Positions 44,483 to 59,510 of a DNA stretch of 64,000 bases are shown here, piece by piece. The first letter of the stretch is position 1. Each line of letters starts with the position of its first letter. The stretch comes from Candidatus Barnesiella excrementavium. Lineage in GTDB: Bacteria > Bacteroidota > Bacteroidia > Bacteroidales > Barnesiellaceae. The DNA is taken from the NCBI GenBank assembly GCA_019115485.1, contig DXDM01000022.1, positions 1 through 64,000 on the forward strand, written 5' to 3'. Position numbers and translations under genes: made by a program. The notes under the pieces were generated by a model, which searched no databases, was not told the DNA's origin, and saw nothing but the letters and a program-made list of their open reading frames with translations.

Positions 44483-45124
44483 TTAGCGTAAATCGATCAC
44501 TTCGGCATGGGGGTACTGCTTCTTGTCGAAAACAAAGGTGGCGTCGGGAAAGTTCTGCCCGGCGGTATATTTCGACAGCACGATGGTGCTGTGGGTACGG
44601 TCGCTGTAATGGAGCTGGAACGACTGAGGGGTCCACGACGAAGCGTTGACGGTGATGACTACCCGGTCGATGTTCGTCCCCTTCTTCTTGGGGGTGAGCT
44701 CAGCCACACGCAACTGGCTGTTTTTCGATTTCAGTGCCTTGACAGTGAAGTTCTGTTTGTAGGTATTGATGAGAATATAGGGGTTGATGCTGGCTACTTC
44801 GTCGGCGGTGGGTTCGGTGAGGTTCACCTCTTGGGTTGAAGCCACGTAGGCCCATTGCAACTGGCCGTTGTACCACACGGTCATGGAGGGAGTTTTCCAG
44901 TAGAATTTATCTCCTGCGAGTTTGATGGTTCCGGTCTGTTTGTCGACCGGCTCGTTCAAGGCGTTGTAGAGAGTCAGGGTGAAGTGGGCCGACAGGTCGC
45001 CCGAGTGGCGGAATTTCTCCACCACCTTGTCGAGTGCGGCCGTACCGCTTTGAGCCTGAGCTGCCTCGGAGCAGGTCAAGACGAGGAGTGCGGCGATGAG
45101 TAGAAGAATACGGTTGATTTTCAT
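44483..45124 (-). CDS. LolA-like outer-membrane lipoprotein carrier
   Basis: Signal peptide; LolA-fold pattern (TGTIKLAGDKFYWKTPSMTVWYNGQLQWAYVASTQEVNLTEP); 4-nt ATGA overlap with ftsK. Confidence 0.85.
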   Translation of the reverse strand: MKINRILLLIAALLVLTCSEAAQAQSGTAALDKVVEKFRHSGDLSAHFTLTLYNALNEPVDKQTGTIKLAGDKFYWKTPSMTVWYNGQLQWAYVASTQEVNLTEPTADEVASINPYILINTYKQNFTVKALKSKNSQLRVAELTPKKKGTNIDRVVITVNASSWTPQSFQLHYSDRTHSTIVLSKYTAGQNFPDATFVFDKKQYPHAEVIDLR

Positions 45125-47682
45125 TTCATTAATTCCAATTTGTTTTCAAGGGCCATGATGTCCGATATCAATACCTGGCGCGGTTTGCCCCCCTCGCTCG
45201 GACCCACGATGCCGGCGGCTTCGAGCTGGTCCATCAATCGGCCGGCCCGGTTGTAGCCGATGGAGTAGCGCCGTTGCAGCGAGGAGGTCGAGGCCTGTCC
45301 CGAGACGACAATCATCTTGGCGGCCTCTTCAAAGAGGGGGTCGCGATTGGCGATGTCGTTACTGCTGCCCGTGTCGTTGTCGGCATTCTTGTATTCGGGC
45401 AGTTCGTAGGCTTCGGGGTATCCCTGTTGTTTGCTGATGTAGTCGCAGATGCGTTTCACCTCGGGCGTGTCGATGAAGGCACACTGGATACGCTTCAATT
45501 CACCCCCTTCGGTGAAGAGCATGTCGCCCCGGCCGATGAGCTGGTTGGCACCGGGTGCGTCGAGAATGGTGCGCGAGTCGACCATCTGCATCACCCGGAA
45601 GGCGATACGGGCCGGGAAGTTGGCCTTGATGTTACCCGTGATGACCGTTGTCGAGGGGCGTTGGGTGGCGATGACCATGTGGATACCCACGGCCCGGGCC
45701 TTTTGGGCGATACGGGCGATAGGCATTTCGACATCGCGCCCGGCCATCATGATGAGGTCGGCAAACTCGTCGATGACCACTACGATATAGGGCATGAACT
45801 TGTGTCCGTTGTTGGGGTTGAGCCGGCGGTGGATAAACTCCTCGTTGTACTCCTTGATGGTTCTCACGTTGGCCTTGGCCAGCAGGGCGTAGCGGTTGTC
45901 CATCTCGATACAGAGCGAGTTGAGGGTAGCGATAACCTTGTCGCTGTCGGTGATGACCGCCTTCTCGGCATCGGGGAGCTTGGCCATGAAGTGCCGTTCG
46001 ATGGACGAGTAGATGCTGAACTCGACCATCTTGGGGTCGACCAGCACGAATTTAAGTTGGGCCGGGTGCTTCTTGTAGAGCAGCGAGGTGATGATGGCAT
46101 TCAGCCCTACCGACTTGCCTTGACCCGTAGCACCGGCTACCAGAATGTGGGGCATCTTGCAGAGGTCGGCAATGAACACCTCGTTGGTGATGCTTTTGCC
46201 CAGTGCCAGCGGCAACTCGTATTTGCATTCCTGGAACTTGCGCGAGGCGAGTACCGAGTACATCGAGACCATCTTGGGGTCTTTGTTGGGCACCTCGATA
46301 CCCACCGTTCCCTTGCCGGGAATGGGGGCGATGATGCGGATACCCAGTGCCGAGAGGCTGAGGGCGATATCGTTTTCGAGGCTTTTGATGCGGGCGATGC
46401 GCACGCCGGCCTCGGGTTTGATTTCGTAGAGGGTGACGGTGGGGCCCACGGTGGCCGTGATGGAGCTGATGCCGATGTTGTAGTTTTTCAGCGTCTCGGT
46501 GATGAGCTTCTTGTTGGCCGCCTGTTCCTCCATGTTGATTTCGACCTCGCTGCTCTCGCGCTTGTCGAGCAGGTCGAAGGTGGGCCGCTTGTAGTGCGAC
46601 AGGTCTTTGGTGGGGTCGTAGTCCTCCATGGGAGCCGCCTGTGTAGCCAGCTCCTCGGTCTCGGCCGTTTCGATGACAAACGAGGGGTCGCCCGTGTCGA
46701 TGGTCATACGTTTGGTCTCTTCGTGGTCGTGAGGGGTATTCCCCTGTATCTCCTCGGGGGTAGGTATGGGCTCTACCGGAGCATCGAGAAATTCGGGCAT
46801 CGTGTCGGCCGGCTCCTCGTCGAAGCGGGTAGTGCTTGTGTCGTTTGTGTCGGCAGGCTCCTCGTCGGTCTCTTCGGGAGTCCCTTCCGGCTCTGCGGTT
46901 TGTCGAGCCTGTGCTTCCGGTTCGTCGGTCGTTTCGATTTCCTCGTCATGCCCTTGATTCTCTTCTGCTATTTTGGAGGCCTTGTGTTTGATGGCCTGTA
47001 TGGCCCGGCCGGTGAGGTTGACTGAGGAGGCCCGGCGTATGTAGTCGATGGTCTTGTAACTGAGGTGCACCAGCAGAATGATGGTGAGGACAGCGATGAG
47101 CAGGGCCGTGCCCCACGGTCCTATCCAGGCGTTGAGCCATTGGGTGGCATAGTAGCCGTGGTAGCCTCCCAGGTACAGGAACGTGTGGTTGTAGCTGTGC
47201 AGGAAGATGAAGCCGAAGAAGAGCGAGAGTACGATAATGGAGAGGGCGCAACTGATGGTGAAACGTATCATGCGCGTGTGCGACACCTTGATGAAGCGGC
47301 GCCCTACCACGTAAAGCCACAGTGCCACGATGAAGGCCGAGATGCCCATCCAGCGATTAATCATGAGGTTGGAGAGGTAGGCACCGAAAGCCCCCGTCCA
47401 GTTCTGTATATCGTTGCTTATCGACGAGAGTTCGCCTACCGACAGGTTTTCGATTTTGCTCTGGTCGGCGCTCCCGGTGAAGAAAAACGAGATGAACGAG
47501 ATGGTGAGATAGAGCGAGAAAATAATGAGAATCACCCCCGTGATGAAACTTGCCTGTTCGTTCTTGAACAAGCCTTTGCGGGGTTTCTCCTCTCCTTGCG
47601 ATACTTCCTGAGTGGTTTCCTTGGGAGCACTCTCTTCGGGTTGTGTCGCTTTTATTTTGGTTTCTTCTTGGTCCTTGGGCAT
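45121..47682 (-). CDS. ftsK: DNA translocase FtsK/SpoIIIE
   Basis: N-terminal TM helices, Walker A AGATGQGKSVGLNAI, Walker B VVVIDEFADLIM, C-terminal gamma domain. Start revised to MPKDQEE (47682). Confidence 0.96.
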   Translation of the reverse strand: MPKDQEETKIKATQPEESAPKETTQEVSQGEEKPRKGLFKNEQASFITGVILIIFSLYLTISFISFFFTGSADQSKIENLSVGELSSISNDIQNWTGAFGAYLSNLMINRWMGISAFIVALWLYVVGRRFIKVSHTRMIRFTISCALSIIVLSLFFGFIFLHSYNHTFLYLGGYHGYYATQWLNAWIGPWGTALLIAVLTIILLVHLSYKTIDYIRRASSVNLTGRAIQAIKHKASKIAEENQGHDEEIETTDEPEAQARQTAEPEGTPEETDEEPADTNDTSTTRFDEEPADTMPEFLDAPVEPIPTPEEIQGNTPHDHEETKRMTIDTGDPSFVIETAETEELATQAAPMEDYDPTKDLSHYKRPTFDLLDKRESSEVEINMEEQAANKKLITETLKNYNIGISSITATVGPTVTLYEIKPEAGVRIARIKSLENDIALSLSALGIRIIAPIPGKGTVGIEVPNKDPKMVSMYSVLASRKFQECKYELPLALGKSITNEVFIADLCKMPHILVAGATGQGKSVGLNAIITSLLYKKHPAQLKFVLVDPKMVEFSIYSSIERHFMAKLPDAEKAVITDSDKVIATLNSLCIEMDNRYALLAKANVRTIKEYNEEFIHRRLNPNNGHKFMPYIVVVIDEFADLIMMAGRDVEMPIARIAQKARAVGIHMVIATQRPSTTVITGNIKANFPARIAFRVMQMVDSRTILDAPGANQLIGRGDMLFTEGGELKRIQCAFIDTPEVKRICDYISKQQGYPEAYELPEYKNADNDTGSSNDIANRDPLFEEAAKMIVVSGQASTSSLQRRYSIGYNRAGRLMDQLEAAGIVGPSEGGKPRQVLISDIMALENKLELMK

Positions 47683-47716
47683 ATTGGGAATAAATGATAT
47701 AATAAACAAATTACTA

Positions 47717-47905
47717 CAAAGATAGTGAAAGGCGAGAGCAGTGGCAAACGAAAACAAAGTTTTCAGGTTTGACAAGGCCGAGCCGCCTCCTATTTTTTAC
47801 AAAGATAGTGAAAGGCGAGCGCAGAGACAAATGAAAACAAAGTTTTCAATTTGGCCTATGCCGAGCCGCATCTTGTCTTATTCAAAGATAGGGAAAGTCG
47901 TATGT
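47717..47905 (-). repeat. Tandem 83-bp promoter-bearing repeat (2 full units plus a partial third)
   Basis: CAAAGATA at 47717, 47800 and 47883 (exact 83-bp period); full units roughly 80% identical; each full unit encodes TTTG-N20-TATCTTTG on the minus strand facing ftsK. Confidence 0.88.
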
Positions 47906-47977: not shown

Positions 47978-49441
47978 CTACGAGTTTTTCCAGAAATAGG
48001 TGGTAAACAGAATCAGTACCGTGAACAGCTCGAGACGACCGATAAGCATGATGAACGAGAGGGTCCACTTGCCTACATCGGGGATAAAGGCGTAGCTTCC
48101 GGTAGGCCCGGTAGCTCCGGCTCCCGGGCCGATGTTACTCAGACACGATAGGGTCGAGCCGAAGGCCTCTTCAATCGAAAGGCCCAAGGCTGTCAGGATA
48201 ATGGAGCCGGCAATGAGAACCATGACATAGACCAGGATAAAGGCCAGAATCTTGGAAACCACCTCGTGCGAAATGGCCTTGCCGTTGACTCGCACCGGCA
48301 TTATGGCATTGGGGTGGATTGCGCGGAAGAACTCGTTGCGTGTGTTCTTGGCGAGTACCACCAACCGGTCTATCTTGGCACCACCGCAGGTCGAACCCGC
48401 ACAGGCTCCGAAGAACATGAGCAGCAGGAACACCGTGGTGAAGAAGGGTCCCCATGCCACATAGTCGCCTACCGTATAGCCTGTGCTGGTGACAACCGTA
48501 ACCACTTGGGCAAGCGATACCCGCAGCGTCTCCTCAAACGAGTCGTTCTGTCCCGTTACATACAGTCCGGCCGTTACCACGAGGGTGGCTCCTATCACGA
48601 TAAAGGTGTACCACCGTGTCTCCTCGTTGGAGAAGAGCCGCTTGAAATCGCCGGTGACGGCCCGATATACCAGGGCAAAATTGATACCGGCAATGAAGGT
48701 AAATATCGTGATGACATAGTCGATGTAGGCCGAATTCCAATAGTTGAGGCTGGCCTGTTTGGTCGAGAATCCACCCGTGGCCATGGTGCTGAATGCATGG
48801 CATACGGCATCGAAAGGCTCCATCGGGCCCAGGCATAGCAGCAGGCAAAGTATGGCGGTGAGCGATACATATACGTACCACAGTTTCTTGGAGGTCTCAC
48901 CGATTTTGGGTTTCAGTTTTTCGTGCGAGATACCCGTCACCTCGGAGTTGAAAAGGAACAATCCACCCTGATGGTTGAGCATGGGGAGTATGGCGATGGT
49001 CAAGAGGATAATACCCATACCACCGATAAGCTGGATAAAGCTGCGCCAGAACAGAATGCCATGAGGCATGGCCTCGACATTCACAATGATGGAGGCGCCG
49101 GTAGTGGTCAAACCCGATACCGATTCAAAGAATGCGTCGGTAATGCTCAGGGGGTTGGGCATGAGGCAGAAGGGCAACATGCCGAAGACCGTGAAAAAGA
49201 ACCATATCGAGGTGACAATCAGGTAGCTTTCGCGTTTGCCCACCTCGTTGCGGACATTCCTGAACAGGTAGAACAAGAGTCCGCCCGTGAAGGCTGTAAT
49301 CAGGGTCGACAGCAGGAAGGCTGTGGCGTCGCCGTTACCGTAGAAGAGGGCGACGAAATAGGGAACGAGCATGAATATCGACTCCATGCACAGCAGCATT
49401 CCGATGAATTTCAGTATGACGCGAACATTGATTTTTGCCAT
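47978..49441 (-). CDS. trkH: TrkH-family potassium uptake protein
   Basis: Multi-TM; selectivity-filter segments TTTGASI, STMATGGFSTK, TSTGYTVGDY, LSNIGPGAG. Confidence 0.95.
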   Translation of the reverse strand: MAKINVRVILKFIGMLLCMESIFMLVPYFVALFYGNGDATAFLLSTLITAFTGGLLFYLFRNVRNEVGKRESYLIVTSIWFFFTVFGMLPFCLMPNPLSITDAFFESVSGLTTTGASIIVNVEAMPHGILFWRSFIQLIGGMGIILLTIAILPMLNHQGGLFLFNSEVTGISHEKLKPKIGETSKKLWYVYVSLTAILCLLLCLGPMEPFDAVCHAFSTMATGGFSTKQASLNYWNSAYIDYVITIFTFIAGINFALVYRAVTGDFKRLFSNEETRWYTFIVIGATLVVTAGLYVTGQNDSFEETLRVSLAQVVTVVTSTGYTVGDYVAWGPFFTTVFLLLMFFGACAGSTCGGAKIDRLVVLAKNTRNEFFRAIHPNAIMPVRVNGKAISHEVVSKILAFILVYVMVLIAGSIILTALGLSIEEAFGSTLSCLSNIGPGAGATGPTGSYAFIPDVGKWTLSFIMLIGRLELFTVLILFTTYFWKNS

Positions 49442-58148: not shown

Positions 58149-59510
58149 ATGAACGTTTCACATCAAAACACCGACAACCTGAACGCCGTGATTTCGATTG
58201 AAATAACGAAAGCCGATTATCAGGACAAAGTTGATAAATCTCTTCGCGCTTACGGGCAGAAAGCCAATATCCCCGGTTTCAGAAAGGGGAAAGTACCGTT
58301 CAGCATCCTCACGAAGATGTTTGGAAAATCGGTTCGGGTAGAAGAGATAAACCGTTTGGTTTCAGAAGCTCTGTACAATTATATCCGCGACAACAAACTC
58401 AATATCCTGGGCGAGCCGATGACGGCCGAAGATATGACGGTCGACCTCGATGCACAGGACGATTTCACCTTCCGTTTTGATGTAGCTTTGGCTCCCGAAC
58501 TGGACGTGAAAGTCGACAAAAAGATAAAAGTTCCCTACTACACGATTACCGTTGACGACGACATGGTAAAACGTCAGAACGAAGCTTTCCTGTCGCGCTT
58601 TGGCAAACAGGTTTCGGTCGACGAGTCGACCGACGAGCGTGACCTCATCAAGGGGTCGATGGTCGAGCTCGCAAGCGACGGCACGCCCCTCGAAGGCGGC
58701 ATCACGGTAGAGAGCACGATTGTTTCGCCCAACTACTTCAAGAGTGACGACGAGAAGGCCAAATTCGCCGGCGTGAAGAAGGGCGACAAGGTGGTGTTCA
58801 ATCCCTCGAAGAGCTGCAACGCATCGGTAGCCGAACTTGCTTCGATGCTCAATACCGACAAGGAGAAAGCTGCCAATGTGACATCTGACTTTGAGATGAC
58901 AGTGACAGATATTACTCATCTGCAACCGGCCGAGTTGAACCAGGAGTTGTTCGACAACGTATTTGGCAAAGATGCCGTAAAAAACGAAGAGGAGTATTTC
59001 GCCAAATTGCGTGAGATGATTGCCCGTCAGCTGGTTCCCGAGAGCGACTACAAGTTCTCGATTGACTCCCGCGCAGCCATCGAAAAAGCCGTAGGCGATT
59101 TCGAGTTGCCCGACGCATTCCTCAAACGCTGGTTGCTGGCTACCGACAAGGAGCGTAAGGCCGAGACCATCGACGACGATTACTCTCGCATGGTGCCCGA
59201 CTTGAAATGGCAGTTGATTAAGGAGCAAATTGTAAAACAGTTCGATATCCACGTCGACGACAACGACTTGAAGGCTTTGGCCAAACGGGTCGCTGCCAGC
59301 CAGTTCGCCCAATACGGTATGACCGGTGTGCCCGACGATGTACTCGAACGTTACGGCAACGAGATGCTGTCGAGCAAGGAGACCCGTTCGCGCCTCATCA
59401 ACCAGGCTACCGAGCAAAAGATTCAAACCGCTATCAAGGAGTCGGTAACCCTCAATCACAAAGAGGTATCGATGGAAAAATTCCAGAAACTGTTTGAAAC
59501 AGCCGAATAA
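58149..59510 (+). CDS. tig: Trigger factor
   Basis: N-terminal ribosome-binding domain with IPGFRKGKVPFSILTKMFGKSVRVEEINRLVSEAL; upstream of clpP-clpX. Confidence 0.94.
   Translation: MNVSHQNTDNLNAVISIEITKADYQDKVDKSLRAYGQKANIPGFRKGKVPFSILTKMFGKSVRVEEINRLVSEALYNYIRDNKLNILGEPMTAEDMTVDLDAQDDFTFRFDVALAPELDVKVDKKIKVPYYTITVDDDMVKRQNEAFLSRFGKQVSVDESTDERDLIKGSMVELASDGTPLEGGITVESTIVSPNYFKSDDEKAKFAGVKKGDKVVFNPSKSCNASVAELASMLNTDKEKAANVTSDFEMTVTDITHLQPAELNQELFDNVFGKDAVKNEEEYFAKLREMIARQLVPESDYKFSIDSRAAIEKAVGDFELPDAFLKRWLLATDKERKAETIDDDYSRMVPDLKWQLIKEQIVKQFDIHVDDNDLKALAKRVAASQFAQYGMTGVPDDVLERYGNEMLSSKETRSRLINQATEQKIQTAIKESVTLNHKEVSMEKFQKLFETAE

Follow-up and report, generated by a model that had tools for sequence, protein, structure and literature searches.

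A dispersed palindromic repeat carrying a predicted promoter is stacked in front of ftsK in a Barnesiella genome

Introduction

In the genome of Candidatus Barnesiella excrementavium, the sequence CAAAGATA occurs at positions 47717, 47800, and 47883, at a spacing of exactly 83 bp, in the gap that precedes ftsK. Each full repeat looks like a complete promoter facing that gene, and the locus therefore raises the question of whether a promoter was duplicated in place or whether the units are copies of something that is found, and perhaps moves, elsewhere. Positions refer to the 64,000-nucleotide stretch of contig DXDM01000022.1 that was analyzed, called the window throughout. We describe the array, the family to which its units belong, and the sites at which related species have or lack them.

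Results

Layout of the ftsK array

The array sits between a trkH-like gene and ftsK, both of which are on the minus strand (Table 1). Its two 83-nt units, 47715-47797 and 47798-47880, align without gaps at 82% identity, close to the roughly 80% of the original prediction, and Tandem Repeats Finder reports them as the top tandem repeat of the window (period 83, 2.2 copies, score 247). Read on the minus strand toward ftsK, both units contain TTTG-N20-TATCTTTG, the inverted repeat GAAAAC-NNN-GTTTTC, and GCGGCTCGGC, which had been given earlier as GCCGAGCCGC; the predicted coordinates, the 83-bp spacing, TTTG-N20-TATCTTTG, and the palindrome proved correct in both. The -7/-33 consensus, with TAnnTTTG as the -7 box, is that of the Bacteroides sigma factor ABfr (PMC7366714). 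A third, partial unit had also been proposed at 47883-47900. The copy of CAAAGATA is indeed there, but the stretch is better read as the -7 region of an older promoter than as part of a unit, since CGACTTTCCCTATCTTTG at this place has CGACTTTTCGCTATATTTG as its aligned counterpart in a unit-less sister genome. Rfam gave no match in the array region. A second, outward promoter on the reverse strand of the units was considered and judged weak: TTTG-N20-TATCTT is present, and the final TTTG is absent.

Table 1 Features of the ftsK array and its flanking genes
Feature	Position	Strand	Remarks
Proximal (gene-side) unit, 80-nt core plus 3-nt linker	47717..47796	-	Subfamily nearest to L028 unit 1 (92%)
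Distal unit	47800..47879	-	Shares 98% identity with L033 unit 3, which precedes an mgtC-family gene at another locus of the genome
Proximal unit, predicted -7 box TATCTTTG	47717..47724	-	Last box, 34 bp before the ftsK ATG; matches the TAnnTTTG consensus (PMC7366714)
Proximal unit, predicted -33 box TTTG (TTTG-N20-TATCTTTG)	47745..47748	-	
Distal unit, predicted -7 box TATCTTTG	47800..47807	-	
Distal unit, predicted -33 box TTTG	47828..47831	-	
Proximal unit, central inverted repeat GAAAAC-AAA-GTTTTC	47750..47764	.	Pairing maintained across copies
Distal unit, central inverted repeat	47833..47847	.	Pairing maintained across copies
Third TATCTTTG box	47883..47890	-	Directly 5' of the array; presumed -7 region of the pre-existing trkH-ftsK promoter; orthologous boxes in G003 and G008
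ftsK, 853 aa, FtsK/SpoIIIE with 4TM and gamma domains	45121..47682	-	Gene downstream of the array; ATG 47682 is, of the starts conserved in sister species, the one nearest the array
trkH-like gene (by inspection)	47978..49441	-	Upstream of the array; syntenic in 8 of 9 genus genomes

A dispersed family that faces genes

Within the 2.68-Mb genome, a BLAST search with the array as query found at least 43 matching places, with E values down to 2e-56 outside the window, a similarity far beyond chance. An iterated nucleotide profile search of these loci and their flanks, whose counts are accordingly lower bounds, recovered at least 72 units in at least 40 arrays of one to three units each. Read in promoter orientation, the full-length consensus is AAGATAGGAGGCGGCTCGGCNTAGNCAAANTTGAAAACTNNGTTTTCGTTTGTCTCTGCTCTCGCCTTTCACTATCTTTG, and successive units are joined by a 3-nt linker, commonly CAG, GAT, TAG, AAT, or CAT. 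In 2.57 Mb of loci from our genome and related ones, similarity is confined to the right third of the unit (-33 to -7) at a further 153 places; these may be decayed units, or they may represent the promoter style that gave rise to the repeat.

The next gene is codirectional in all 40 arrays listed for the genome, and the box typically lies 20 to 50 bp before the gene start. The same orientation was found in 35 of 37 arrays (median distance, 37 bp) in an unbiased 1.2-Mb sample of G001, the sister species closest to our genome within the genus, and in 101 of 101 cases among 8-kb loci from named Bacteroidales genomes that were located by a 32-base pattern; all three counts rest on gene calls by a simple in-house caller. 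Random intergenic placement would give about 0.575 codirectional, and between two codirectional genes, where 0.5 is expected, the count is 42:1 in favor of facing the gene. Among genes of the sister genome that have no units, TAnnTTTG peaks 20 to 40 bp before the start on the sense strand, with no such peak on the other strand, so the box of a unit is placed exactly where an ordinary -7 box is. These data strongly support the earlier suggestion of a dispersed promoter-carrying repeat, the copies of which were to be sought here and in other Bacteroidales for a consistent orientation to genes.

The two arrays of the sister species that lack a codirectional gene deserve separate description. At 326735-326801 of segment S3 (L222-L241 joined), a good unit (51 bits) has no codirectional gene within 580 bp; its target may be a small RNA or a small gene missing from the annotation. 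At 58322-58441 of segment S2 (L202-L221 joined), two degenerate units point away from an mgtC-like gene, the ortholog of which in our genome (L033) is preceded by three units in the usual orientation.

The genes downstream include ftsK, priA, dnaB, uvrD/pcrA, a tyrosine recombinase, RNase H1, rsgA, rnr, argS, ispD, rpe, mgtC, MATE and MFS transporters, GH92, alpha-fucosidase, and more. They are nonhomologous and belong to unrelated Pfam families; gene duplication is not how the promoters spread. Those of replication and repair that appear to be unit driven are priA, dnaB, uvrD/pcrA, RNase H1, and ftsK (arrays L028, L047, L059, and L055 and that of the window).

Distribution among the Bacteroidales

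All nine genomes of the genus match the repeat, as do 18 of 295 genomes sampled from the order (E ≤ 1e-6), which come from 10 genera and several of which have high copy numbers. Among 297 genomes drawn from the phylum, our genome was the sole match. Named carriers include Barnesiella, Paraprevotella, Mediterranea, Muribaculaceae, Phocaeicola, Alistipes, and Tidjanibacter, and loci from an uncultured Barnesiella share up to 93% identity with our own. One relative from another family of the order (G036) has many copies of a shorter form, of about 65 nt. A contig labeled Gastranaerophilales (L131, CALVEV010000052.1) carries a unit, is 78% identical to the Barnesiella-type locus L049, and is probably misbinned. 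Full-length units were also seen in a Phocaeicola plasmid record (L262, OY726013.1) and in two unverified fecal contigs named "Bacteriophage sp." (L263 and L264, MT835991.1 and MT836672.1); a route between families and bacterial contamination are both possible readings of these records.

Growth and turnover of arrays

In multiunit arrays, the closest relative of 24 of the 33 full units lies in another array. The window array follows this pattern, as each of its units is nearer to a unit elsewhere (Table 1) than to its neighbor; judged by their sequences, the two belong to different subfamilies and are of independent origin. The proposal that the stack was made by duplication is thus not supported for this array: the nearest-neighbor identities speak against tandem duplication as its origin and make successive acquisition the likelier course. 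True local tandem duplication was found at other loci, namely L041 and the ftsK array of G003, in which units 1 and 2 and units 3 and 4 form identical pairs. Between the two closest species, orthologous arrays differ in unit number (3 versus 1, 2 versus 3, 2 versus 1, and 1 versus 3), and at L046, L035, and L027 units have been replaced by those of another subfamily inside conserved flanks (∼92% identical). The gene-proximal unit fits the family model better than the distal unit in 32 of 45 arrays.

Filled and empty sites

At the trkH-ftsK site, our genome and G001 have two units each, G003 has four, and the remaining six genomes of the genus have none. A TAnnTTTG-type box lies upstream of ftsK in all six of the latter; five of them keep the trkH-ftsK synteny, with a single short promoter at the orthologous position (CGACTTTTCGC-TATATTTG in G008), and in G004 the synteny is broken. 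Directly upstream of the array, the older box is still visible as CGACTTTCCC-TATCTTTG in our genome and as CGACTTTGCC-TATCTTTG in G003. When filled and empty sites were compared over the whole 64-kb window in six sister genomes, ftsK was the sole informative site.

Elsewhere in the genome, L043 provides a clean case of presence and absence between species, in which the sister lacks exactly 83 bp, through insertion in one species or loss in the other. Here the insert appears to lie just before the ancestral box and to bring its own left box, and the exact junction is therefore not uniform across sites; boxes flank the units, but no clean target-site duplication can be read from the L043 junctions. 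At L061, an unusual box, TATTTTTG, is common to the filled site and the empty sister site, and the TAnnTTT box is again present at further unit-less sites. The left end is intact in 24 arrays, and in 12 of these a TAnnTTT box lies upstream at precisely -11.

A hairpin conserved by pairing

Pairing in the middle of the unit is maintained throughout the family, although this region varies in sequence and in length (26 to 46 nt). When the arms of 52 representatives were exchanged, with kinship among copies left in, pairing energy was -9.7 kcal/mol with the own partner and -6.5 kcal/mol with shuffled partners, and none of 10,000 permutations was as good. The sequences thus indicate that the central stem is conserved through base pairing and not through its sequence. 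RNAalifold returned no consensus fold for the full 52-unit alignment because gap-rich stems of unequal length are misaligned in it, and the arm-swap energies were used instead. The ends of the unit, AAGATAG and CTATCTT, are inverted, and the 3' copy doubles as the -7 box; the left arm changes together with the box before it, AATATAG occurring with TATATTT in 9 of 10 cases. Of the two strands, the one complementary to the promoter strand more often tolerates G.T wobble pairs (123 versus 27 in the outer stem and 30 versus 12 in the inner stem), which hints at the strand that folds. The bias suggests a role for that strand as single-stranded DNA; alternatively, it could arise nonselectively, from templated correction of imperfect palindromes during replication.

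Discussion

The dispersal, orientation, and distance to start codons, the presence and absence between species, and the box at empty sites are all established at the level of sequence. In our judgment, the family is quite probably a mobile, noncoding, palindromic repeat that carries a promoter and is either placed at existing -7 boxes or retained only there. Each 83-bp unit would be one copy of this repeat, whose 3' end holds a complete Bacteroidetes housekeeping promoter, TTTG-N20-TATCTTTG; that the units are active promoters is suggested by their match to the consensus, by where they lie and how they face, and by their conservation. A copy would be placed where a gene already has its -7 box (TAnnTTTG) and would rebuild the box at that spot. 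Such placement and restoration would fix the orientation, let the new promoter drive the gene, and allow a further copy to stack. Most units of an array would have come successively from elsewhere, and some from tandem duplication on the spot, and the units within an array would differ as a result.

We infer that placement uses the -7 box and is not the outcome of selection retaining useful copies, and that copying involves the hairpin as single-stranded DNA; selection alone, without targeting, could yield the same orientation pattern. As for the agent, a search of 2.57 Mb of own and related sequence for separated left and right ends enclosing a gene found no autonomous parent. An integron attC site was considered and rejected, as the integrase model TIGR02249 never scored above cutoff in 15 carriers. 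The remaining routes are an element moved by an enzyme and nonreciprocal copying at shared boxes, both of which amount to promoter replacement at an existing -7 box. A more specific version, which we put forward tentatively and would not bet on, is a self-spreading promoter whose left arm base pairs with an existing -7 box, whereupon the element is copied there and the box rebuilt, so that genes are captured singly and stacking is possible. The copying would then probably be of a folded single strand, by some enzyme.

Several other explanations were weighed. The one that survives best, though we still consider it improbable, does without a mobile element: ordinary promoters would undergo gene conversion (concerted evolution) and spread by homologous or microhomology-mediated recombination at shared boxes. 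This accords with the swaps of subfamily within conserved flanks at L046, L035, and L027, with the 8 to 12 bp of homology that the boxes on either side of a unit supply, and with the lack of a detected transposase or parent element. However, whole-unit gain or loss of 83 bp at L043 and ftsK would have to be initiated from about 8 bp of homology, pairing kept over a variable stem sequence is not predicted by conversion alone, and the few genera with high copy numbers are spread across several families.

Rather unlikely, too, is untargeted insertion in the manner of a MITE, followed by selection so strong that only copies that give a promoter persist. The units are short and noncoding, with inverted ends and a high copy number, and other promoter-bearing MITEs are known (PMC4596501, PMC2649163). 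Yet with 58 of 414 gaps being convergent, neutral placement predicts that about 11 of 77 arrays in the two species lie in such gaps, and at most one does; no degenerate copies were seen reversed or inside genes in our genome; and the sister keeps its -7 box in place at unit-less sites.

We give little credence to a regulatory repeat, in which the palindrome would be a transcription factor site and the shared sequence the mark of a regulon. The central GAAAAC-NNN-GTTTTC is common and adjoins the -33 box, but the stem sequence is freely exchanged provided that pairing holds, and the genes concerned have no single theme. It seems equally improbable that the stacked promoters form an expression switch that works through copy number change, a reading suggested earlier along with a possible boost to ftsK expression. 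Unit numbers do differ, at ftsK (0, 2, or 4) and at other loci (3 versus 1, 2 versus 3, and 1 versus 3), but this variation is seen between species only, and distal units tend to decay, as expected if the proximal promoter alone matters. Elements of the IS200/IS605 group use guide/target pairing, which the possible pairing of the left arm AAGATAG with the box resembles, and the units are palindromic, intergenic, and dispersed like REP/RAYT elements; nevertheless, movement by a Y1 tyrosine transposase is largely refuted and very unlikely, as 14 of the 15 carrier genomes tested lack Y1_Tnp (PF01797), which 24 of the 30 noncarriers in the first set possess, with control genomes as expected.

If placement or retention at -7 boxes is indeed how this family spreads, a sizeable set of genes in one Bacteroidales genus of the gut, core replication genes included, would be driven by one mobile cassette that turns over between species, and the birth and replacement of promoters would be directly observable at defined sites. 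It would give a reason for possibly different expression of orthologous genes among these species, and geneticists working on Bacteroidales would gain a compact promoter part of natural origin. The bacterium appears to be rewiring its genes through copies of a single promoter cassette. Known promoter-bearing repeats are placed more loosely; the strict orientation seen here is what opens targeting versus selection to a test.

Mobile promoters are a known concept; a search of open-license papers found none on intergenic repeats of Barnesiella or on the present family, nor its landing site or conserved hairpin. Comparison with known systems places the family among, and apart from, several of them. 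Like REPs and REPINs with their RAYT transposases, the units are intergenic palindromic repeats present in large numbers, but nearly all carriers lack the Y1 transposase, and REPs are not known to act as promoters of the next gene. The Correia repeat enclosed elements of Neisseria have 26-bp terminal inverted repeats (TIRs), insert at TA, and lie near genes in either orientation. They are likewise short inverted-repeat elements that form hairpins and create promoters (PMC2649163), the latter being predicted in our case; unlike them, the present family has an essentially fixed orientation and is placed at -7 boxes. The BrickBuilt MITE of Porphyromonas gingivalis, also of the Bacteroidales, is similarly intergenic and dispersed, with variable tandem repeats and a promoter, again only predicted here; it consists of 23-nt repeats, its IS5-like TIRs measure 12 nt, the target is duplicated over 4 nt, and its promoters are bidirectional (PMC4596501). 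Our units differ in their 80-nt length, their ends, and their single gene-facing promoter, and neither the 23-nt unit nor TIRs of the GAGACCTTTGCA type were found in them, the period being 83.

The closest concept is that of putative mobile promoters and promoter propagation in prokaryotes, reportedly described by Matus-Garcia and colleagues in 2012. As in that concept, homologous promoter sequence stands before nonhomologous genes, here in at least 40 arrays, and orthologous sites differ in its presence, here at ftsK (nine genomes), at L043, and at further empty sites. Beyond it, the present family is defined by units of a fixed 83 bp that share a conserved hairpin and can stack, by a proposed landing site at the -7 box, by empty sites, and by a patchy spread across the order.
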